From NCBI RefSeq assembly GCF_007994985.1, contig NZ_VOQF01000014.1:1-64000 (forward strand): DNA of 64,000 nt, written 5' to 3'. Every line of letters begins with the position of its first letter. The stretch's first letter is position 1. This document shows, in pieces, positions 5,727-54,640 of this stretch. The position numbers and the translations under genes are program-made. The stretch is from Metabacillus litoralis (GTDB lineage: Bacteria > Bacillota > Bacilli > Bacillales > Bacillaceae). The notes under the pieces are model-generated. The model searched no databases. It was not told the DNA's origin and was given only the letters and a program-made list of their open reading frames with translations.

Positions 5727-5843
5727 AGCTATATTCGTAAACTTGTTGTTTTTAGAAATCTGAAGAAAATAGCACTGTATAATCTTTAGAAATATCTTTA
5801 TATTTTGTCCTTTTAAATAAAATTTACCTGATCGTAATGAGTC

Positions 5844-5972
5844 CGTTCCATTTCGCTCCAGAAACTTGCTTTCCGCGGGGAGGAAGCTGAGCCTCCTCGG
5901 CGCAAGCGCCTGTGGGGTCTCACCCTTTCCTCTGCGCCCGCAGGAGTCAAGTTTCTTCCGCTACATTGCACT
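5844..5972. repeat. GC-rich intergenic element, subtype B, reverse orientation
   Basis: GC-rich island in the 343-nt gap between the two acyl-CoA dehydrogenase genes. Its reverse complement starts with TAGTGCAATGTAGCGGAAG and continues to GACTCCTGCGGG and AGGCGCTTGCGCC. This is the core also found inside the longer elements at 47762-48111 and 53207-53561. Self-complementary and non-coding. Upstream, 5765-5790 (AGCACTGTATAA) resembles a fragment of the 163-bp MITE family. Confidence 0.8.
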
Positions 5973-6069
5973 ATAATTACTGTAAATATTTTGCTTAATT
6001 AACATCTTTAGAAAAATTGTTTTACCAAATAAAATACGATAATTTCCAACAGAAAAGGGGAGAAACACT

Positions 6070-11214: not shown

Positions 11215-11386
11215 GGGTGCATAAAGTATAAACTGTATTTTACTTGCTCATGAAATGAAATTCTACTTTATCATGAATATCTTCTTTAACTTTTTTAGAA
11301 CATTAAATTAAGTAAAAGTAATTTTTAAGTAAATCTCTTTAATAAAGTATAGTTTTTAAATATGTCTTTAGCAGTAACTAATGTAA

Positions 11387-11516
11387 GGTTGATTGGAGCG
11401 GAAGGTGCGAGACTCCTGCGGGTGCGCGGGACAGGTGAGATCCCGCAGGCGCTGTGCGCCGAGGAAGCTCACCGCACGCCCCGCGGAAAGCGAGCAACCT
11501 GTAGCGCAAATCAACC
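11387..11516. repeat. GC-rich intergenic element, subtype A, copy 1
   Basis: 130-bp element bounded by GGTTGATT and AATCAACC, in the icmF-rpoE gap. The interior is GC-rich (GACTCCTGCGGG, CGCAGGCG-CGCCGAGGAAGC, GCCCCGCGGAAAGCGAGC). Copies at 34719-34849 (inverted) and 51585-51714 are nearly identical. Small ORFs across it on both strands are by-products. The rest of the 624-nt gap (11215-11838) is AT-rich; a -10-like TATAAT sits at 11724-11729 with no good -35. Confidence 0.85.
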
Positions 11517-11838
11517 AGCACCATACTTTTACAAAGGGTTTAAGAAAAAACTCCAATAATAGGTATTTATCATAACAACAGAGTGACTTAATTGATTAGA
11601 AATAATCTAAAAAGTAAGTAATTAATTAAAGCTACCACTAATATAAACTCTGACACAAAGGTGCAGAAGCATTTTTGTGTATTTTTTACGTTATAAAGGT
11701 GGCATAAACTACTAGAATTTGTTTATAATGAATGGTATGGTTTGTTGACTTTACAATTTGTACATAATGGTAACGAATAATACTAATGTTCTTATTTCTT
11801 AATTTATAGATTGATGACCTAGAAAGGGAGTGCCGTAT

Positions 11839-12378: not shown

Positions 12379-12490
12379 TTGACTTTCTTTTTCACAGTAG
12401 GTAGAATCTATTTTGGGCTCTTAAAAAGCTATCGTTTGTAATTTTACATTTACAGCTCCCTTTCAACTAGTTTGGAAGGGAGCTTTCTTA
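12379..12490 (+). promoter_or_regulatory. pyrG promoter and CTP-sensing attenuator
   Basis: Promoter TTGACT-N17-TAGAAT (12379-12407), then 7 nt to an initial GGGCTC (12415-12420). Downstream is an intrinsic terminator: AGCTCCCTT (12454-12462) pairs with AAGGGAGCT (12475-12483), then TTTCTTATTTT. This is the arrangement of B. subtilis pyrG. Low CTP stalls polymerase at the first C, extra G residues are added to the 5' end by slippage, and the G-tract pairs with the CU-rich arm to block the terminator. The remaining leader to 12710 is AT-rich without other visible signals. Confidence 0.9.
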
Positions 12491-12671
12491 TTTTGTAGAG
12501 AAAAAAACTATGAGAAACTACGGTCCTTTACTATAAAGAACCGTTTTCCAATAAATAAGATGGACAAGCAGTATTGAAACCTTTTTTAGGGAAATATTGC
12601 AAGTATATTTCACATTAGCTTAGCACCTCACACTTTACTAATAAGTTTTCCAAATTTATTTTTTAATTTAG

Positions 12672-14318
<1,647 letters not shown>

Positions 14319-14356
14319 TACACATTTCTATATATTCTTAAATTAGCTATAATCTA

Positions 14357-14408
14357 GAGCTAGTTGTTCCTCTTTCTATTGAAAGAGAGGTCAACTAGCT
14401 TTTTTTTA
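14357..14408 (+). terminator. pyrG terminator
   Basis: Long stem AGCTAGTTG(tt)CCTCTTTC with GAAAGAGAGG(t)CAACTAGCT around a 4-nt loop, followed by a run of eight T. Confidence 0.9.
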
Positions 14409-14611
14409 TTTTATATAGGTATTGGTGAACTTTGGCTTTCTACCTCTTAAAGAAGGATATCCTTATTTGGGCTTGGCTATAACTTATCAGAGCTTGTGCT
14501 TTTCCTCTATTATTATGTTCTACTTTCAAAAATTGAGCATAATATCCAATAATAAGAAACAAAAAATCATTCGTTCATTTAGCCTATATGTATATGTTTA
14601 TTACATTTTAC

Positions 14612-14748
14612 GAAACCGGTTTTTATAAATTTTTAAAAAAATCAAAAAAACAGTTGAATAAAATGTAATAAAGTTATATAATTCTACTTGAAAGCGGTTT
14701 CTGTTACTAATAATTGCAACTGATTCTCTAATTTTAGAAATCGGTTTC
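14612..14748 (+). promoter_or_regulatory. Promoter and operator array of the beta-glucoside ABC operon
   Basis: A promoter TTGAAT-N17-TATAAT lies at 14654-14682. LacI-type near-palindromes sit around it: GAAACCGGTTTT (14612-14623), GAAAGCGGTTTC (14690-14701, at the expected start of transcription) and GAAATCGGTTTC (14737-14748). A weaker TTTCCGG is near 14762. Site 14689-14702 also matches the CcpA cre consensus TGWAARCGYTWNCW at 13 of 14 positions. The same operator recurs at 20669 and before the cellulase (23865, 23896). The LacI-family protein encoded at 18085 is the likely binder. Confidence 0.75.
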
Positions 14749-23424: not shown

Positions 23425-23670
23425 CAAAAAAGAGACAACATAAGTATTTAAGCAAATGATAACCCTAATTAACAGGTGATATGTCAATTAATCTTTCACC
23501 TGATAGTTAGGGTTTTTTTGTTGTCTTCAATAAATTTTTTGATTGTTCCTATTATTTAGTGGAATGGAGCGGCAGGCACTCAACTGCTACCATTAAGATT
23601 TAATTGTCTTAATAGATGAATTATTTAATGATATCCCAACCCCTTTTTCATTTTGGGAAAGGGGTTTCCT
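23425..23670. repeat. Decayed copy of the ~350-bp hairpin element, acting as terminator
   Basis: It keeps the 5' hairpin of the element family (AACCCTAA with TTAGGGTT, inner CAGGTGA with TCACCTG, 23461-23515, then T7) and the text up to GTGGAATGGAGCGG. The GC-rich core is lost. The right end (23630-23655, TATCCCAACCCC) resembles the family terminus. A second hairpin ACCCCTTT/AAAGGGGT follows (23638-23668). Both could stop transcription after the YesL-like gene. Confidence 0.65.
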
Positions 23671-33369: not shown

Positions 33370-33465
33370 TTGCTCATGTGCTTTTCTAGTTGTGATTTAT
33401 CTTTTGATGAATCCACTAGATATTACTCTGTTTCAGATGATTCAGGGCGGAAGGAGATGAAAAGA

Positions 33466-34718: not shown

Positions 34719-34849
34719 GGTTGATTTGCGCTACAGGTTGCTCGCTTTCCGCGGGGCGGGCGGTGAGCTTCCTCGGCGCATAGCGCCTGTGGGATCTCAC
34801 CTGTCCCGCTGCACCCGCAGGAGTCTCGCACCTTCCGCGCTAATCAACC
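34719..34849. repeat. GC-rich intergenic element, subtype A, copy 2 (inverted)
   Basis: 131 bp, GGTTGATT to AATCAACC, the reverse complement of the copies at 11387 and 51585 with few differences (CCGCGGGGCGGGCGG, CGCATAGCGCC, CACCCGCAGGAGTC). Confidence 0.85.
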
Positions 34850-34980
34850 TTAAATAGTTTTGGTGATCAAACCCTTTAAGACTACATTATTACCATCTTC
34901 TATAACCCTGTGTAGATAGATTTAAGTAACCTAAGTAACAAGTAACGTTTCGAAGAAGAATATTACTACAAGCTGAATTA

Positions 34981-46836: not shown

Positions 46837-47706
46837 GTGAAATTTGTATATGAAGCCCTTAATTGGGCTTCTTCTTTTTTAAAGGAAGCGGGAAGAGATG
46901 AAAATGCTGGAGAGTTATTGCTGCGTCACCATTTAAATATGGAGCGTGCGACACTACTGTCAAATTTGAGACTGGTCCTCTCAGAAGAACAAAAGGAAAT
47001 CTTCATACATGATGTAAAAAAACATGGAGAAGGCATACCTGTTCAATATTTAATCGGTTATGAAGAATTTTATGGACGACGTTTTAAAGTGAACAAAGAG
47101 GTGCTTATCCCTAGACCAGAAACAGAGGAGCTTGTTGAAGGAATTCTAACAAGAGCTACAAAAATGTTTGCAGATCAAAAAGAGATCAATGTAGTTGATA
47201 TAGGCACTGGAAGCGGTGCGATTGCCATCACATTAGCTTTAGAAAAATCGGAATTCAAAGTGAGTGCTGTTGATATTGCAGAAGAATCCTTACAAATTGC
47301 TAAAGTAAATGCAGTAGCTTTGCAGGCTAATGTAGAATTTTTACACGGTGATCTACTTGAACCGATTGCAAATAAAGCTGAAGAAGGAAAAATCGACATC
47401 CTCGTTTCAAATCCTCCATATATACCTGATTGGGAAATTGAAACTCTTTCACCTGTTGTGAAGGATTATGAACCAATGCGGGCATTAGCAGGAGGAAAGG
47501 ATGGACTCGACTTTTATAGAAGATTAATTTCAGATATGAAGGAACTCCTGAATACTCGAGCTTTAATCGCATTTGAAATTGGAGCAGGTCAAGGAGAGGA
47601 TGTACAAAACCTTCTGAAGCAAGCCCTTCCACATGCAAATGTTGAGGTTGTTTATGATATCAATGGGAAAGATCGCATGGTGTTTGGAGAATTGAAGCAA
47701 GATTAA
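46837..47706 (+). CDS. prmC: Release factor glutamine methyltransferase
   Basis: SAM-dependent N5-methylation of the glutamine in the GGQ motif of release factors. 289 residues: N-terminal helical RF-binding domain (to about 85), then a Rossmann methyltransferase with DIGTGSGAIAITLA and the catalytic SNPPYIP. It starts at GTG 46837, close behind prfA (operon). ywkF-like neighbours of B. subtilis are absent; a 350-bp element follows instead. Confidence 0.95.
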   Translation: MKFVYEALNWASSFLKEAGRDENAGELLLRHHLNMERATLLSNLRLVLSEEQKEIFIHDVKKHGEGIPVQYLIGYEEFYGRRFKVNKEVLIPRPETEELVEGILTRATKMFADQKEINVVDIGTGSGAIAITLALEKSEFKVSAVDIAEESLQIAKVNAVALQANVEFLHGDLLEPIANKAEEGKIDILVSNPPYIPDWEIETLSPVVKDYEPMRALAGGKDGLDFYRRLISDMKELLNTRALIAFEIGAGQGEDVQNLLKQALPHANVEVVYDINGKDRMVFGELKQD

Positions 47707-47761: not shown

Positions 47762-48111
47762 AATGAGGTTGGACATAAGTATTTAAGTTAATGAAAAATC
47801 CGAAATATTAGGAGATATTTCAATTAATTATTCGCCTAATATTTCGGGTTTTTATTTGCATACTTCGATAGATTTTTGGATTTTGCATACTATTTTTAAG
47901 AACTAGTGGAATGGAGTGGAAGACATTTGACTCCTGCGGGTGCAGAGGAAAGGCTGAGACCCCACAGGCGCTTGCGCCGAGGAGGCTTAGCTTCCTCCCC
48001 GGCGAATCTTATGTCTGCAGCGCAATGGAACGAACTTGTTTCTTTCATCTTAACTGAATTTAGATTTATTCGTCTTTTTGTATGACTTCTTTAATTAGTC
48101 CCAACCTCATT
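47762..48111. repeat. 350-bp hairpin element, copy 1, between convergent genes
   Basis: Terminal inverted repeats AATGAGGTTGGACATAA and TTAGTCCCAACCTCATT. Near the left end is a hairpin (GAAATATTAGG with CCTAATATTTC, 47800-47850). The GC-rich subtype B core lies at 47909-48036 (GACTCCTGCGGG ... GGCGCTTGCGCC). No coding capacity. It fills most of the gap between the convergent prmC and DUF4240 genes. Paralogue at 53207-53561; decayed relative at 23425. Confidence 0.85.
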
Positions 48112-48151
48112 ATCTGTATTCATTTTCAATCGGTTTATCTGCTTTTAACCT

Positions 48152-48700
48152 TTAACCTAATGGATCTTCTCCAAATCTTTCCCATAGAACAGGAAATAGA
48201 TTTTCAAGATCATCTTCTTCCCAATCAAATTCGATGTCATTTACAGGTTGCAATCCCTTTTTATCAAGAGCTTCTAATAATTCGTCGTGTATATTGTCAT
48301 CCCATTCAATATCACCAGTCTTTATCAGGGTATAGGCATCAAGTCCAACGGAAAGTAACTCTTCATTTTGAGGGTACCCTTCGTCATCAAGGTTATCTTC
48401 ATTTATATATTCTGCTAAAAATTCAGGGTCTTTCAATACCTTGTTAAATACTACTTCTCCTTGTCCAATAAGCCATCCCCGAAAATAATCAAAAGCATCA
48501 TCAGAGCAGCCACCCATTAAAACAAACGCTGCTCCCCATAAACGGGAATTATAACTAGCATTCATTAACTCTTGAAATAGAAATTCAAATTCCACAACTT
48601 CCTCTACTTCTTTTTCAGCTAATAACTCAGTTAACCATTCTGCTTGATCATCAAATTCTCTGGATTTCTCGATTAAACTCCACAATTCTTTCTGATCCAT
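48152..48700 (-). CDS. DUF4240 domain protein
   Basis: Acidic cytosolic protein of 182 residues. DUF4240-type features: start MDQKELWSLIEKSRE, the conserved LWGAAFVLMGGCSDDAFDYFRGWLIGQG, and EELLSVGLDAYTLIKTG. Function of the family is unknown; such proteins are sometimes found with immunity or toxin-antitoxin genes, but none is nearby. ATG 48700 is chosen because GGAGGT lies 7 nt upstream; the frame is open 15 codons further. Probably an accessory gene between prmC and spoIIR. Confidence 0.85.
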   Translation of the reverse strand: MDQKELWSLIEKSREFDDQAEWLTELLAEKEVEEVVEFEFLFQELMNASYNSRLWGAAFVLMGGCSDDAFDYFRGWLIGQGEVVFNKVLKDPEFLAEYINEDNLDDEGYPQNEELLSVGLDAYTLIKTGDIEWDDNIHDELLEALDKKGLQPVNDIEFDWEEDDLENLFPVLWERFGEDPLG

Positions 48701-48937
48701 TATAAAGACCTCCATTTTATCTTCGCTAATTGGTAAATTTGACATATAATAATCGATTTTCTCACTTAAATGAACCTACCTGTTATAGTAAGTATAGTAT
48801 TTCTCAATTAATACATATTTTAACATATTTAAGTTCATACCCATATTTTTTCAGAAAACATAGAATACATCCTTAATTTTGGTAACTAACTATTATTCTA
48901 TCTATTAATCTATTTTTAAAAATTTTTAAAAAACATA

Positions 48938-48966
48938 GTTTAAGAATCTTTTACGCTGTCCATACT
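48938..48966 (+). promoter_or_regulatory. Candidate SigF promoter of spoIIR
   Basis: GTTTA (48938-48942), 15-nt spacer, GTCCATACT (48958-48966). This matches the SigF pattern GYWTA-N15-GGNNANANT except the second G. spoIIR is SigF-dependent in B. subtilis, and the start codon is 22 nt downstream. Confidence 0.6.
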
Positions 48967-48987
48967 GTCTACCAAGGGAGGCGTTAG

Positions 48988-49659
48988 ATGATGAAAAAAC
49001 AACAATTAGCACTTATATATATTATCCTATTATTTGCAGGGGCAATCGCAAATGTTTATAAAGAACCAGTAGCAGCAACAAGCACAGAGGAACCAGTGGT
49101 GATACCAGATGAGGCCATTCGTTTACGAATTCTAGCTAATAGTAATTCTGATGAAGACCAGGAATTAAAAAGAAAGATTCGTGATGAAGTGAATAAAGAA
49201 ATCACAGAATGGGTGGAAGAATTAACTTCTGTAGATGCTGCTAGAAAATTAATTCAATCAAGATTACCCGAAATAGAAGCTATTGTGGAAGATGTTCTAG
49301 AAAAGGAAAATATACAACAATCATATTCAGTAGATTTTGATAATGTTAGCTTTCCAACTAAGCTATATGGCAATTTTATTTACCCAGCAGGAGATTACGA
49401 AGCAATTCTTATTAGCTTAGGTGAAGCAGAAGGTGCTAACTGGTGGTGTGTACTCTTCCCACCATTATGTTTCCTAGACTTTTCAAATGGTGAGGCTGTT
49501 GCAAATGCAGAAGAAACCGAAGAGAAGCAAGTAGCTGAAAACGACCAAGCTAAATCAACAGAGAAAGCAGCAGCTCTTGTTATAGATGAAGAAGATGAGA
49601 AAGAAGAAGTAGAAGTGAAATTCTTCTTAGTAGAGTGGTTCGAAGGGATATTTTCATAA
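48988..49659 (+). CDS. spoIIR: Stage II sporulation protein R
   Basis: Forespore signal protein secreted into the intermembrane space to activate SpoIIGA, which then processes pro-SigE. 223 residues, near the B. subtilis length. N-terminal signal anchor (about 5-22), the family core AIRLRILANSNSDEDQELKRKIRDEV, then YPAGDYEAILISLGEAEGANWWCVLFPPLCF with its conserved WWC. The C-terminal part is acidic and variable, ending in FFLVEWFEGIF. GGGAGG precedes ATG 48988 (ATG 48991 also possible). Confidence 0.93.
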   Translation: MMKKQQLALIYIILLFAGAIANVYKEPVAATSTEEPVVIPDEAIRLRILANSNSDEDQELKRKIRDEVNKEITEWVEELTSVDAARKLIQSRLPEIEAIVEDVLEKENIQQSYSVDFDNVSFPTKLYGNFIYPAGDYEAILISLGEAEGANWWCVLFPPLCFLDFSNGEAVANAEETEEKQVAENDQAKSTEKAAALVIDEEDEKEEVEVKFFLVEWFEGIFS

Positions 49660-49670
49660 GGTAGGAAAAA

Positions 49671-49697
49671 GGCGGGGGTCAGACCCCCGCTTTTTTT
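49671..49697 (+). terminator. spoIIR terminator with GGGGTCAGACCCC core
   Basis: GCGGGGGTC and GACCCCCGC around a single A, then eight T. Same core as the hairpin at 2332. Confidence 0.9.
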
Positions 49698-49760
49698 TGG
49701 AATAAAACTAGATTTCATCTCATAGAGTTGTAGTAGAGAAAAATGATATGGGGTGAGATC

Positions 49761-50204
49761 ATGTTTTATCAGTTAAAAATAGCAGAAGAAAAGGATCTTG
49801 GTAGATTAACAGATTTTGTCGAAAAAGCTGGTGTAAGTTCTGATGGTGTATCAGAAATTATTGATTATTTTGTACTAATGGAAAATGGAGAAAATGAGAT
49901 TGTTGCGACTATTGGCGTTCAACCATTAAATGAAAATGGATTGTTAAGGTCTTTAGTAGTGTCAGATAAGCTTAAACAAGCACATATCCTAACACTTTTC
50001 CAAAGTATTCAAACATTAGCTGAGAAAAAAGGTATTAATCATTTATTTTTGGTAACTAATAAAGAAGCATCAGTTCAATTTTTATCACTAATGGGCTTCG
50101 AAGAGATAGATTTTAAAGCAATTCCAAAGGATCTTTTAACTTTAGAGCATATGAATGGCTCACTTAAAGAAGAAAATGCAAAGATTATGAGAAGAACTGC
50201 TTAA
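49761..50204 (+). CDS. ywlB: GNAT-family acetyltransferase YwlB
   Basis: 147-residue N-acetyltransferase of the GCN5 fold: GENEIVATIGVQPLNENGLLRSLVVSD (strands 3-4) and LFLVTNKEASVQFLSLMGFEEID near the end. The acetyl-CoA pyrophosphate loop is degenerate, so the activity is uncertain. ATG 49761 has GGGGTGAG at 5 nt; the ATG at 49743 lies before this site. Position is that of B. subtilis ywlB. Confidence 0.85.
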   Translation: MFYQLKIAEEKDLGRLTDFVEKAGVSSDGVSEIIDYFVLMENGENEIVATIGVQPLNENGLLRSLVVSDKLKQAHILTLFQSIQTLAEKKGINHLFLVTNKEASVQFLSLMGFEEIDFKAIPKDLLTLEHMNGSLKEENAKIMRRTA

Positions 50205-50707
50205 TATCCACACAGTTATCCACATTACTGCAAGTCTTATCCACAAATTGTGGATAAGACTTGTTTTATTATAGGACTTCTTTTATACTTTCAAGAGTCA
50301 AGAATCTACAAAACCGCGAAATTTGTAGATAAATCGAACGGTTGCAAAAGGAGTTATTATAGATGAAAACGAAACTTTGGACTGTGGATGATCTTAGTAA
50401 CTTATCCACTAGTTATCCACAAATCACACAGGCAGCAGATTTTATCCGAAATAATGAGGTTGTCGCTTTTCCAACTGAAACGGTGTATGGGCTAGGAGCA
50501 AATGCATGCTCAGATGATGCTGTAAGAAAAATCTTTGAAGCAAAGGGTAGACCAAGCGATAATCCACTAATTGTCCACATTGCATCAATTGAACAGCTAG
50601 AGGAAATCGTTGAAGATGTATCTGGTTATGCCTATCAACTAATTAAAGCCTTTTGGCCGGGTCCATTAACACTAGTATTAAGAAAAAAGGCAAATCAGTT
50701 ATCCACA
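50204..50707. promoter_or_regulatory. DnaA-box cluster at ywlB-ywlC
   Basis: Perfect TTATCCACA boxes at 50216-50224, 50237-50245, 50249-50257 (reverse strand), 50413-50421 and 50699-50707. One-mismatch boxes lie at 50204-50212 (ATATCCACA), 50402-50410 (TTATCCACT) and 50571-50579 (TTGTCCACA). Three perfect boxes and one variant lie between the two genes, the others within ywlC. B. subtilis has DnaA-box clusters outside oriC that bind DnaA stably; I recall one at ywlB-ywlC. A role in titrating DnaA or in controlling ywlC is inferred. Confidence 0.85.
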
Positions 50708-51409
50708 TTCGTGACGGCGGGCTTAGATACAGTTGCAGTGAGAATGCCAAATCATCCAGTTGCTTTAGAGATCATTGCTAAATCAGGGGTCCCGGTCGCT
50801 GCGCCAAGTGCGAATCGATCTGGAAAACCAAGTCCAACACAAGCTAACCATGTCTATCATGACCTTGATGGAAAAATAAGCGGAATCATTGACGGAGGCC
50901 CAACAGGTGTTGGTGTTGAATCAACAGTCCTTGATTGTACATCAGATATCCCAACAATCCTTCGACCAGGTGGAATAACAAAACAACAACTAGAGTCAAT
51001 CATTGGAAAAGTTAATGTCGATCAAGCACTAATTGAAGAAGGTCATACTCCAAAATCACCTGGAATGAAATACACCCATTACGCACCAAATGCACCTGTT
51101 GTGATCATAGATGGAAGTCATAAATATATGCAAAACATAATTAATCAATATGAAGAGCAAGGTAAGAATGTAGGTGTACTCACAACAGAAGAAGGATTAA
51201 ATCACTTTCAAGCACAAAAAGTAATTGCCTGTGGAACGCGTAAAGACCTGAATACAGTTGCAGCAAATCTTTATGACGTACTACGCCAATTTGATAAAGA
51301 AGAAGTTGACGTTATTATAAGTGAAAGCTTCCCCCTAGATGGAGTCGGTGAAGCAATCATGAACAGATTACTAAAAGCAGCAGGAAACAATGTGATTGTG
51401 GAAGAGTGA
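50363..51409 (+). CDS. ywlC: Threonylcarbamoyl-AMP synthase (Sua5 type)
   Basis: Makes threonylcarbamoyl-AMP from threonine, bicarbonate and ATP for the t6A37 tRNA modification. 348 residues, so the long two-domain form: YrdC domain (about 20-210; FPTETVYGLGANACSD, KGRPSDNPLIVHI, VAAPSANRSGKPSPT) plus C-terminal Sua5 domain. The linker KSPGMKYTHYAPNAPV is characteristic. Start ATG 50363 with AAAGGAG. DnaA boxes lie in its promoter region and inside the gene, which is unusual. Confidence 0.94.
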   Translation: MKTKLWTVDDLSNLSTSYPQITQAADFIRNNEVVAFPTETVYGLGANACSDDAVRKIFEAKGRPSDNPLIVHIASIEQLEEIVEDVSGYAYQLIKAFWPGPLTLVLRKKANQLSTFVTAGLDTVAVRMPNHPVALEIIAKSGVPVAAPSANRSGKPSPTQANHVYHDLDGKISGIIDGGPTGVGVESTVLDCTSDIPTILRPGGITKQQLESIIGKVNVDQALIEEGHTPKSPGMKYTHYAPNAPVVIIDGSHKYMQNIINQYEEQGKNVGVLTTEEGLNHFQAQKVIACGTRKDLNTVAANLYDVLRQFDKEEVDVIISESFPLDGVGEAIMNRLLKAAGNNVIVEE

Positions 51410-51584
51410 ATGATTTGATTTCCGAGCTAGTAGTTTGCTTTCTGAAAATTAATTTTCGAGTAGTTTTATTCCGAGGTTATCGTGAATGATCATTTATATA
51501 GAGAAATGTTGAATACAACTGTGAACTAAGTTTTTTTATAACAACTTATATTTTGGTACTTTATATAGAAATGTAAACTATTTA

Positions 51585-51714
51585 GGTTGATTGTAGCGAA
51601 AGGTGCGAGACTCCTGCGGGAGCAGCGGGACAGGTGAGATCCCACAGGCGCTTGCGCCGAGGAAGCTCACCGCACGCCCCGCGGAAAGCGAGCAACCTGT
51701 AGCGGAAATCAACC
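51585..51714. repeat. GC-rich intergenic element, subtype A, copy 3
   Basis: 130 bp, GGTTGATT to AATCAACC, same orientation as the copy at 11387, in the ywlC-mntP gap (431 nt). The rest of the gap is AT-rich, and I do not see a manganese riboswitch. Confidence 0.85.
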
Positions 51715-51840
51715 AACCCGCTACACTTTATTAGACTCCCTTAAATAGAAATATCTGGTCTCAGGTTTCAAAACATCATAATGTTCTATTCCAAATCGGA
51801 CGTGCATAAAGTTAAATAGGCGTGTCCGAGGAGGGGGAAC

Positions 51841-52401
51841 ATGGATATTCAATCAATAATCGGTGAATTAATCACACTATTAATAATGGCTTTAGCTTTA
51901 GGAATGGACGCATTTTCCGTAGGCCTTGGAATGGGCTTAATTAAGTTGAGATTACGACAAATATTCTACATTGGTGTAACAATCGGTGTTTTTCATATAT
52001 GGATGCCGCTAGTTGGTATGTTAATTGGACGACTTTTAACTGACACCTTTGGAACAATTGCAACTTTATTAGGCGGAGGTCTCTTAATACTATTAGGAAT
52101 ACAAATGGTTTTTTCATCATTTAAAAAAGACGACGAACCACTGATCACTCCTGTAGGCTTTGGGTTAATTGTATTTGCGCTAAGTGTAAGCTTAGATAGC
52201 TTTTCAGTTGGCTTAAGTTTAGGGATTTATGGAGCCAAAACATTCCTGACTGTCGCTATTTTCGGGATCGTAAGTATGGTTCTAACATGGTTGGGTTTAC
52301 TAGTTGGAAAAAGAGTGCAAAATTGGCTTGGCTCATACAGCGAAGCACTAGGTGGCGCCATTTTATTAGCATTTGGAATTAAGCTTCTATTACCTTTTTA
52401 A
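51841..52401 (+). CDS. mntP: Manganese efflux pump MntP
   Basis: 186-residue inner-membrane exporter with six helices arranged as an inverted repeat. Conserved acidic motifs [12 protein letters not shown] (helix 1) and [12 protein letters not shown] (helix 4) are the metal path. Occupies the ywlD position of B. subtilis. Start ATG 51841 with GAGGAGGGGG. Confidence 0.92.
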
Positions 52402-52440
52402 TTGAAAAATCGGTATAAGTAATAGACAGGGAGAATAGAA

Positions 52441-53205
52441 ATGATCGAATCATTTAAAGTACATATGACCCAATTAAACGAGGAAAGAAATATCAGAATC
52501 TATCTTCCAAGAAAATATGAGAAAGAAGATAAACGATATCAAGTGCTGTATATGCATGATGGACAAAATGTTTTTCAAAGTACTGATGCAATTGGTGGTG
52601 TTTCTTTAGAATTAGAAAACCATTTAGATGATAATGGTATAGAGATAATCGTTGTAGCAATCGATCAAAATAGTAAGAAACGAGTAGATGAATATTGTCC
52701 ATGGGTGAACGGTGAATATAGCAAGGAAATCTTTGGTTTGACTGAAACAACAGGTGGCTCTGGGAAAGAATATATTGATTTTGTTGTTAACGATCTAAAG
52801 CCACTTATCGATAGAAAGTACCGAACAAAAAAAGATGTAACTTCAATTGCAGGTATTTCATTAGGTGGATTAATCTCCACTTATGCTGCATGCTGTTATC
52901 CACAAGTGTTTAAGAAAGTCGCAGTATTATCTTCTGCTTTCTATAGAAATCAGGAACAAATAGAAAAACTTTTAATAGAAACAGATTTATCTTTTGTTAA
53001 TGGATTTTATATCGATTGCGGAACAGCAGAGGCGAAGAAGGATATTAGAATTAGTGAAGAGTTTTTGGCTTCAAATGAAAAAATCTATCATATTTTAAAT
53101 AAGAAGCATCATCATGTTATATTTGAAAAGCATCATGATGCAGAACATAGCTATACGGAATTTAAAAAAAGAGTTCCGAAGATGATTTCTTTTATAATAG
53201 ATTAA
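52441..53205 (+). CDS. Esterase of the alpha/beta hydrolase (putative esterase) family
   Basis: 254 residues, cytosolic. Fold features: RIYLPRKYEKEDKRYQVLYMHDGQN at the start, the nucleophile elbow GISLGG (Ser about 143), an acidic residue in DCGTAEAKKD and a C-terminal His in EHSYTEFKKRV. Relatives include siderophore and acyl-glucan esterases; the substrate is unknown. It starts 39 nt after mntP with AGGGAGA, so cotranscription is possible. The 355-bp element begins directly after its stop codon. Confidence 0.82.
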   Translation: MIESFKVHMTQLNEERNIRIYLPRKYEKEDKRYQVLYMHDGQNVFQSTDAIGGVSLELENHLDDNGIEIIVVAIDQNSKKRVDEYCPWVNGEYSKEIFGLTETTGGSGKEYIDFVVNDLKPLIDRKYRTKKDVTSIAGISLGGLISTYAACCYPQVFKKVAVLSSAFYRNQEQIEKLLIETDLSFVNGFYIDCGTAEAKKDIRISEEFLASNEKIYHILNKKHHHVIFEKHHDAEHSYTEFKKRVPKMISFIID

Positions 53206-53206
53206 T

Positions 53207-53561
53207 GAAGAGGCTGGGACATAAATATTTAAGCTAAAGATAAACCCGAATTATTAGGTGATATGTCAATTAAACATTCGCCTAATATCTCGGGTTTTTA
53301 TTTGCTTTCTTCAATAGATTTTTTGATTTTGCATACTTTTTTTAAGAACTAGTGTAATGGAGCGGAAGACATTTGACTCCTGCGGGTGCAGAGGAAAGGC
53401 TGAGACCCCACAGGCGCGCAGCTTACGAGGAGGCTCAGCTTCCTCCCCGCGGAAAGCAAATGTCTGCAGCGCAATGGAACGAACTTATTTCTTTCAACTT
53501 AACTGAATTTAGATTTATTCGCCTTTTTGTATGACATCTTTAATTATGTCCCAGCCTCTTC
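53207..53561. repeat. 355-bp hairpin element, copy 2, filling a convergent gap
   Basis: Terminal inverted repeats GAAGAGGCTGGGACATAA and TTATGTCCCAGCCTCTTC, perfect over at least 17 bp. Internal hairpin at 53250-53297 (TTATTAGG with CCTAATA, closed by ACCCGA and CGGGT) and GC-rich subtype B core (53352-53480). It occupies essentially the whole space between the stops of the esterase and the CobW gene. Confidence 0.88.
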
Positions 53562-53566
53562 GTTTT

Positions 53567-54547
53567 CTATGTTAAGTGTAAAAAGGTTTGCTCGTAAGAT
53601 TCTTTTATTGCATCACTATTAATTCCGTTACCGATTAAGATTATGATTGGTTTTAAACCATTTTTTGATTTTACTTCTTCTAATGCAAGCTTTTTAGATG
53701 CGTATTGAAATGAATATAAATTTGAGTCTTTATGAAACTGAACGATTCCTTTTCCTCTGAAAACATTTTCTGGTAAACCTTTTAACCACTTCTCAAATAC
53801 CTTTTTATCAAATAGTGGTATATCTTCCAACTTAACAGCTTTAATAGCCGCATGGTTAACATGATCATGACTACATGATGAATCTACTGAACATCCGCAT
53901 GCAGATACTTGTTTGTCTGTTAAGTTAATTGTACGTACTCTCTCCGTCAACAGCTCAGCTACTGAGACATCTCCATATGAAGCACTAACAATTGGTATTT
54001 CTTCATGAACTAATTTCTTAATTTGAGTATGAATTTTATCGAGTTTTTTTTCGGAAACAAGATCTGTTTTATTTAAAATAATAAACGAAGCACTCGTAAT
54101 TTGTTCCTTTAATAGTGTTCGAACCTCTTTTGAGCTAGAAAAAATACTTTGGTAGTCTAGGTAATTACTTGCATCTACTAAACTAATAACTGATTGTAAA
54201 TTAAATTGATCAATATATAGTGGGCTTGAAAGCGCCTCGATAATTTCATTAGGGTTCGCAACACCAGTACCTTCTATTAACAAGATGTCGACAGGATTTT
54301 TGACAAATTGATCTAAAGTTGTTTTTAAATCCTCTTGAATAGAGCAACAAATACAACCGTTTAAAAGCTCATACATTTGTTCCTTATCAAATAGATGGTT
54401 CTCAACATTTGTATCGCCAAGCTCATTGAGGATTATACCAAGCTTTTGTCCTCTTGTATTGCATTCTTCAACGAGTTTTTTCAACACAGTTGTTTTACCA
54501 CTTCCTAAAAATCCACTAATTATATAAACATTTATAGGTAGTTTCAA
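53567..54547 (-). CDS. CobW/COG0523 metal-chaperone GTPase, zinc-linked
   Basis: G3E GTPase of 326 residues: Walker A GFLGSGKTT, the metal motif GCICCS (CxCC), Walker B LLIEGTGVANP and NKTD. A His/Cys-rich insertion (CGCSVDSSCSHDHVNHA) precedes the C-terminal CobW domain. Relatives under Zur (YciC, ZagA) deliver zinc to target enzymes. TTG 54547 is chosen: GAGGGG lies 6 nt upstream and the product starts MKLPINVYIISGF; the frame is open to 54637, but that DNA carries the promoter. A Zur-like box overlaps its -10. Divergent from zinc-dependent alkaline phosphatase. Confidence 0.9.
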   Translation of the reverse strand: MKLPINVYIISGFLGSGKTTVLKKLVEECNTRGQKLGIILNELGDTNVENHLFDKEQMYELLNGCICCSIQEDLKTTLDQFVKNPVDILLIEGTGVANPNEIIEALSSPLYIDQFNLQSVISLVDASNYLDYQSIFSSSKEVRTLLKEQITSASFIILNKTDLVSEKKLDKIHTQIKKLVHEEIPIVSASYGDVSVAELLTERVRTINLTDKQVSACGCSVDSSCSHDHVNHAAIKAVKLEDIPLFDKKVFEKWLKGLPENVFRGKGIVQFHKDSNLYSFQYASKKLALEEVKSKNGLKPIIILIGNGINSDAIKESYEQTFLHLT

Positions 54548-54579
54548 CACAAACCCCTCACTTTTCATTATTGGTATCA

Positions 54580-54625
54580 AATAGGAATCGTTACGATTAT
54601 ACACGTATATTATACACTTCGACAA
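54580..54625 (-). promoter_or_regulatory. Promoter with Zur-like box for the CobW gene
   Basis: On the minus strand, TTGTCG (54620-54625), N18, TATAAT (54596-54601). The stretch 54580-54598 (AATAGGAATCGTTACGATT) matches the B. subtilis Zur box AATCGTAAT-N-ATTACGATT at 15 of 18 defined positions and overlaps the -10. Zinc repression is inferred. Confidence 0.75.
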
Positions 54626-54640
54626 GCAATTCCTCAAAAA

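Follow-up and report, generated by a model that had tools for sequence, protein, structure and literature searches.

The 64,000-nucleotide stretch of Metabacillus litoralis DNA analyzed here (contig NZ_VOQF01000014.1, positions 1 to 64,000; hereafter the window) contains two full copies of a 350-bp repeat with inverted ends, and the question that they raise is whether such a repeat is a folded molecule selected from end to end or a mobile element. We find that it is a non-coding miniature inverted-repeat transposable element (MITE) of a new family, and we consider it highly likely (a probability of roughly 0.9) that an IS1182-family DDE transposase moves it in trans, using inverted repeats as targets, with the target hairpin being replaced and no target duplication being made. 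The hairpin-replacing mode is already known from IS1272/TnSha1.

The 350-bp repeat is a non-coding MITE

The MITE is about 350 bp long, has no open reading frame (ORF) spanning it and is bounded by the 15-bp terminal inverted repeats (TIRs) GAGGCTGGGACATAA/TTATGTCCCAGCCTC. From left to right it consists of a TIR, a short spacer, a terminator-like hairpin, a spacer, a structured core of ~135 nt, a spacer and the second TIR. The first-pass annotation of the window, which was made from its letters alone, had placed copies at 47762-48111 and 53207-53561 and a decayed copy near 23461. All three are real, the bases of the two full copies are as it gave them, and the TIR-bounded spans are listed below. 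Both full copies fold much more strongly than shuffled versions of themselves (z of -8.5 and -5.8).

47765-48108, + strand: MITE copy A, flanked by prmC (46837-47706, + strand) and a DUF4240 gene (48152-48745, - strand)
47765-47778, + strand: left TIR of copy A, GAGGTTGGACATAA, with a single-base deletion
47797-47851, + strand: subterminal terminator-like hairpin of copy A, AAATCCGAAATATTAGG...CCTAATATTTCGGG, then a T tract
47904-48037, + strand: structured core of copy A
48095-48108, + strand: right TIR of copy A, TTAGTCCCAACCTC
53210-53558, + strand: MITE copy B, flanked by an esterase gene (52441-53205, + strand) and a cobW-like gene (53567-54637, - strand)
53210-53224, + strand: left TIR of copy B, GAGGCTGGGACATAA
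53242-53301, + strand: subterminal terminator-like hairpin of copy B, then a T tract
53350-53484, + strand: structured core of copy B, GACTCCTGCGGG...CCGCGGAAAGC
53544-53558, + strand: right TIR of copy B, TTATGTCCCAGCCTC
23432-23644 (about), + strand: decayed MITE copy with damaged TIRs, its core mostly gone and its hairpin pairing kept through compensatory changes

Forty complete or near-complete copies, about 86-95% identical, were found in the window's genome (G000), and the examined part of this genome holds at least 49 MITE copies at 78-100% identity. A density of ~25 full copies per 0.9 Mb extrapolates to the order of a hundred copies in the 4.9-Mb genome. The MITE is also found in Metabacillus crassostreae (G011), M. 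litoralis (G003), Bacillus suaedaesalsae (G027) and an Alkalihalobacillus metagenome-assembled genome. Copy B has an ortholog in M. crassostreae that is 98.6% identical outside of the core. At the site of copy A, M. crassostreae holds a paralogous MITE copy in the opposite orientation, and M. litoralis G003 holds a different MITE of ~165 bp with similar TIRs. A second, core-free family of MITEs with the same TIRs, 136-234 bp in length, was observed at locus L283 (G003 C6:321600-322500), at G000 C45:461731 and at G003 C7:165650.

Insertion replaces a terminator-like hairpin

The mode of insertion can be read from sites that are filled or empty depending on the genome. A search that compared 2.37 Mb of the window's genome with M. 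crassostreae and M. litoralis yielded 16 filled/empty comparisons plus one further site, and these, after two (#19 and #24) were dropped for diverged flanks, represent 12 distinct sites. At all 12 of them the MITE occupies the position of a terminator-like inverted repeat, 22-42 bp long, in the empty genome. The replaced hairpins, of which AAGGGGCTGATGTATTTCAGTCCCTT, GCTAAGAATCACAAATATGATCTTAGC and AAATAGAGTGAAGAAAAAGACTTCACTCTATTT are examples, are unrelated to one another, and there is no fixed target sequence. Relative to dinucleotide shuffles the 12 replaced segments have a mean z of -5.0, and stems of at least 8 pairs are present in 11 of them; when each was compared with 300 shuffles, ten had no shuffle as good and the other two had 2/300 and 10/300. 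Both flanks could be aligned to within 2 nt of the TIRs (GAGG/CCTC) at nine sites, and no target site duplication is present at the cleanly aligned filled/empty sites. At sites 1 and 6 the hairpin is ancestral, since two genomes keep it there. One empty site lies within the window.

14356-14401, + strand: empty site with hairpin CTAGTTGTTCCTCTTTCTATTGAAAGAGAGGTCAACTAG and a T tract; a MITE stands in its place in M. crassostreae (G011 C5:203773)

Bases just outside of the TIRs are also complementary to each other more than in shuffled pairings (mean run of 1.82 versus 1.37, p = 0.0008, n = 73), which is expected if the target stem partly survives, and this flank complementarity is probably a remnant of that stem.

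Genomic position, as judged from simple ORF calls, is strongly skewed. Specifically, 31 of 52 MITEs lie between convergent genes as compared to 243/1475 (16%) in the background (P = 2.6e-12), none of the 52 lie between divergent genes (P = 7e-5) and none are inside an ORF, with the median distance to a stop codon being 22 nt. In the mechanism that we propose, targets would mostly be terminator-like hairpins just past the 3' ends of genes, the transposase would act on a cruciform or folded strand at the target, and the element would take the place of the hairpin.

Targets are also reused. Among 13 sites that are occupied in two genomes, five carry MITEs in opposite orientations with an identity at the level of paralogs, and these represent repeated use of the same target. 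Inversion in place is unlikely, as the opposite-orientation pairs are no closer to each other than random paralogs (0.84-0.91, median 0.872). Either terminators are struck repeatedly, or the element with its inverted ends itself serves as a target for replacement. If the proposed mechanism is true, a genome that carries such elements has the terminators of many of its genes rewritten, some of them repeatedly.

The subterminal hairpin may in turn take over termination from the hairpin that was replaced, in which case insertions would be nearly harmless. Termination by this hairpin is plausible from its sequence.

The MITE shares its ends with autonomous IS1182-family elements

IS1182-family elements that have the TIRs of the MITE are present in two congeners, with four 1821-bp copies in one (G002) and a single 1824-bp copy in the other (G008). 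The TIRs of these insertion sequences (ISs), and of others on several plasmids, differ from the MITE TIR by 0-1 mismatches in 15, and the transposase of the TIR-matching IS scores 434 bits against NF033551, where the cut-off is 270. Plasmid ISs of Cytobacillus, Kurthia and Mammaliicoccus combine the same TIR with an inward terminator-like hairpin beside each end, and the congener elements also have inward terminator-like hairpins. The end consensus that is shared by the MITE and the autonomous IS1182 elements is GAGGCTGGGACA(T/A)AA. Because the autonomous elements share these features, the MITE can be described as having the ends and subterminal hairpin of an IS1182 element but no gene. In the window's genome transposase would be supplied, and the MITE mobilized, in trans. 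We also considered and rejected an origin of the MITE by plain internal deletion from the core-bearing ISs at loci L093-L107, there being no support for it outside of the core and its edges.

In an IS1182 subgroup of the same genus that has different ends (TCAGACTGTAGACAA, loci L109 and L110), the IS is flanked on each side by a full stem-loop, for example GTCAACAATTATTGTTGAC. The arrangement looks like a duplication of the hairpin, which the GAGGCTGGGACA subgroup instead replaces.

L109, 1120-1180 and 2700-2760, reverse strand: stem-loops beside the IS
L110, 930-985 and 2520-2570, reverse strand: stem-loops beside the IS

Several observations weigh against a MITE that replaces hairpins, carries its own terminator and is driven by an IS1182 transposase. 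An intact IS1182 transposase is absent from the draft genome of the window, where there is just a 27-bit relic, and beyond the TIRs and the core the MITE interior is matched by none of the autonomous elements seen. The replaced segments come from only three related genomes, and the flanks at #19 and #24 were too diverged to be used. In regards to termination, sites between tandem genes have no orientation bias (11 versus 10), and we rejected a stricter version in which a single internal hairpin is required as a one-direction terminator, as the orientation bias that it predicts is absent. A simple terminator scanner reports neither the copy A nor the copy B subterminal hairpin; it misses the copy A hairpin because the loop exceeds the 3-8 that the scanner allows, and it is also silent on the bulged hairpin of the empty site at 14356-14401.

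The hairpin and core covary and the terminal repeats do not

The first-pass annotation had proposed that the terminal repeats differ between copies while staying paired within each copy, and that the folded form is consequently under selection. In an alignment of 44 copies, the 15 TIR pairs contain 0 two-sided cells where shuffling gives 1.5, and 89.7% of the positions are paired versus 89.9% upon shuffling. A second count in 40 copies gave arms that are identical at 516 positions versus 518.2 when shuffled. As the TIR arms show no excess of two-sided change, the pairing in the GAGGTTGG/CCAACCTC copy is coincidental, two single changes that are each common having come together there. The terminal repeats are transposon ends whose arms drift independently in each copy, which is the very behavior that the annotation had named as speaking against its proposal. 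The outer AAT/ATT and GAA/TTC pairs that it had counted as pairing of the element both sit outside of the TIRs, and they are consistent with A/T tracts together with stubs of the replaced target stem. A comparison of only two copies of a repeat can thus give misleading apparent covariation.

A different result is obtained with the internal hairpin. The changes that had been cited in favor of its pairing (TAGG/CCTA versus CAGG/CCTG, and CCCGA versus CCCTAA) are real, and the 44 copies contain 5 two-sided cells versus 0.9 expected, a value that is matched by 1 of 500 shuffles. With 128 distinct hairpins from several species there are 27 two-sided cells versus 4.5 expected (maximum of 13 in 500 shuffles). 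The core, which had not been flagged, also covaries: 31 sequences from 28 genomes contain 79 two-sided cells versus 22.8, which was reached by 0/500 shuffles (with slid controls at 12 or fewer), although the covariation shuffles ignore relatedness of the sequences. Overall these paired changes support conserved structures in the hairpin and core, so that the claim of selection on the folded form holds for these two parts and fails for the terminal repeats.

These results bear on two other explanations for the repeat as a whole. One is that it is a structured RNA or single-stranded DNA, such as a bidirectional terminator or a non-coding RNA, with selection on the entire fold including the terminal stem. 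This would account for the strong folding of full copies, the covariation of the internal hairpin and core, and the location at the 3' ends of genes. However, the closing stem is frequently mismatched and does not covary in 44 copies, which already refutes the terminal-stem part; most copies are polymorphic or paralogous among close relatives, and target choice accounts for their position. We therefore regard selection on the whole fold as improbable. We give far less credence still to a repetitive extragenic palindromic (REP)-like element that is mobilized by RAYT/Y1 tyrosine transposases through recognition of hairpins on single-stranded DNA. Although the core is a hairpin and the window's genome does have three Y1_Tnp genes, no MITE copy is located within 1.5 kb of these genes, the ends are inverted repeats identical to those of IS1182 elements, and hairpins are replaced exactly. 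The three genes are RAYT-like and have no identified repeat partner.

G000 C45:4970-5296: Y1_Tnp gene
G000 C45:12126-12395: Y1_Tnp gene
G000 C6:107207-107536: Y1_Tnp gene

The core is found across the Bacillales

Of 60 Bacillales genomes searched with a covariance model, 49 contain the core, often with at least 51 matches, and these represent 23 of the 30 genera. It occurs free-standing, and it is also carried by this MITE, by MITEs that are bounded by GGCTATGTTAAAG and by IS1182-family loci. Four free-standing cores are present in the window.

5836-5973, - strand: free-standing core, medium type
11386-11517, + strand: free-standing core, short type, with GGTTGATT/AATCAACC ends
34719-34854, - strand: free-standing core, short type
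51581-51725, + strand: free-standing core, short type

Inside one genome the covariation signal of the core comes mainly from two or three subfamilies. Moreover, two pairs of copies are clearly orthologous, and within these pairs 8/139 and 6/138 positions differ in the core as compared to 3/208 and 1/209 in the rest of the element; this greater divergence of the core points to exchange among copies. The within-genome signal is thus partly confounded by subfamilies and apparent copy exchange. One core arm alternates between CCCGCGGAAAGCAAATGTC and CCCGGTGAATCTTATGTC in orthologs (window 53350-53484 versus locus L034) while the remainder is almost constant.

Neither the core nor the element matches an Rfam 15 family at the curated threshold, and weak microRNA-like Rfam hits on the hairpin, far under the thresholds in both gathering and relaxed runs, were dismissed as chance. 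Phage records gave no match, and sequence-word and topic searches of open-access text found no description of the core. A structure that covaries strongly at many loci across an order is therefore nameless in Rfam.

Two readings of the core can be set against each other. It is quite possible that the core is an independent mobile repeat, a passenger that invaded several transposons and is not a working part of IS1182 elements. Free-standing cores are common, with 73 of 125 matches being outside of complete 350-bp elements, and the core is carried by MITEs whose ends (GGCTATGTTAAAG) are unrelated and whose target duplications measure 7-8 bp (G011 C8:69994-70143 and G000 C45:312991-313098), which we would guess to be ISL3-type derivatives from their resemblance. 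It is also missing from some IS1182 elements (L104, L070, L279, L281, L282, L303 and L304). This is countered by its constant placement, on the strand opposite to the transposase and upstream of it, in 22/22 distinct core-bearing IS1182 loci that represent several subgroups with differing ends, and by the Kurthia plasmid IS that pairs the core with the TIRs of this MITE (36.5 bits, E = 2e-7 for the locus). We tentatively raise a second, rather doubtful reading, in which the core, located between the left end and the transposase in several subgroups, would be a previously undescribed structure, folding as RNA or as hairpin DNA, that functions within hairpin-targeting IS1182 elements. It would have been retained by their MITEs, borrowed by MITEs of another transposon family, and kept under selection for its fold across the Bacillales. 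A core with such a role might regulate the transposase, or help to find or open hairpin targets.

Relationship to known elements

In Staphylococcus, the IS1182-family elements IS1272 and TnSha1 replace inverted repeats, which are often terminators confirmed by RNA-seq, without a target duplication, and one target can be reused in both orientations (PMC5678879, PMC4923244). The MITE resembles them in deleting the hairpin without duplicating the target and in being found in either orientation at one target, and by this behavior it belongs to an already known kind of element. In contrast, IS1272 and TnSha1 are autonomous or composite and kilobases long, whereas the MITE is non-coding, 350 bp in length and present at a much higher copy number. 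Hairpin-replacing transposition that was documented in staphylococci (PMC5678879, PMC4923244) is thus readable here at 12 independent sites and in another family, and a small, high-copy, non-coding element makes the choice of targets (terminators and the 3' ends of genes) directly testable. The TIR and end hairpins of the MITE recur in the autonomous IS1182 elements of Metabacillus, Cytobacillus, Kurthia and Mammaliicoccus, with the Kurthia copy also having the core, but these elements encode a transposase and their interiors are otherwise unrelated to that of the MITE.

The EFAR elements of Enterococcus are listed among bacterial MITEs (PMC3733652). Like the MITE they are small and non-coding, and they differ from it in host order and interior. 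Insertion of EFAR reportedly deletes most of a 24-37 bp stem-loop with part of the stem being kept, a finding attributed to Venditti et al. 2007. This reported trait is matched by the MITE, which replaces a stem-loop and appears to keep part of its stem (p = 0.0008 above), and we take it as a likeness and not as descent. Judged by names and sizes, bcr1 of the Bacillus cereus group, Bhal-1 and other stem-loop families are comparable small structured repeats of low-GC Firmicutes (PMC2267715).

Other features of the window

The only Rfam matches, which lie elsewhere in the window, are a PyrG leader at 12415-12494 and an L31 ribosomal leader at 33426-33456. Finally, positions 14591-14678 contain an intergenic, abutting inverted repeat of 44 nt that is 75% complementary.

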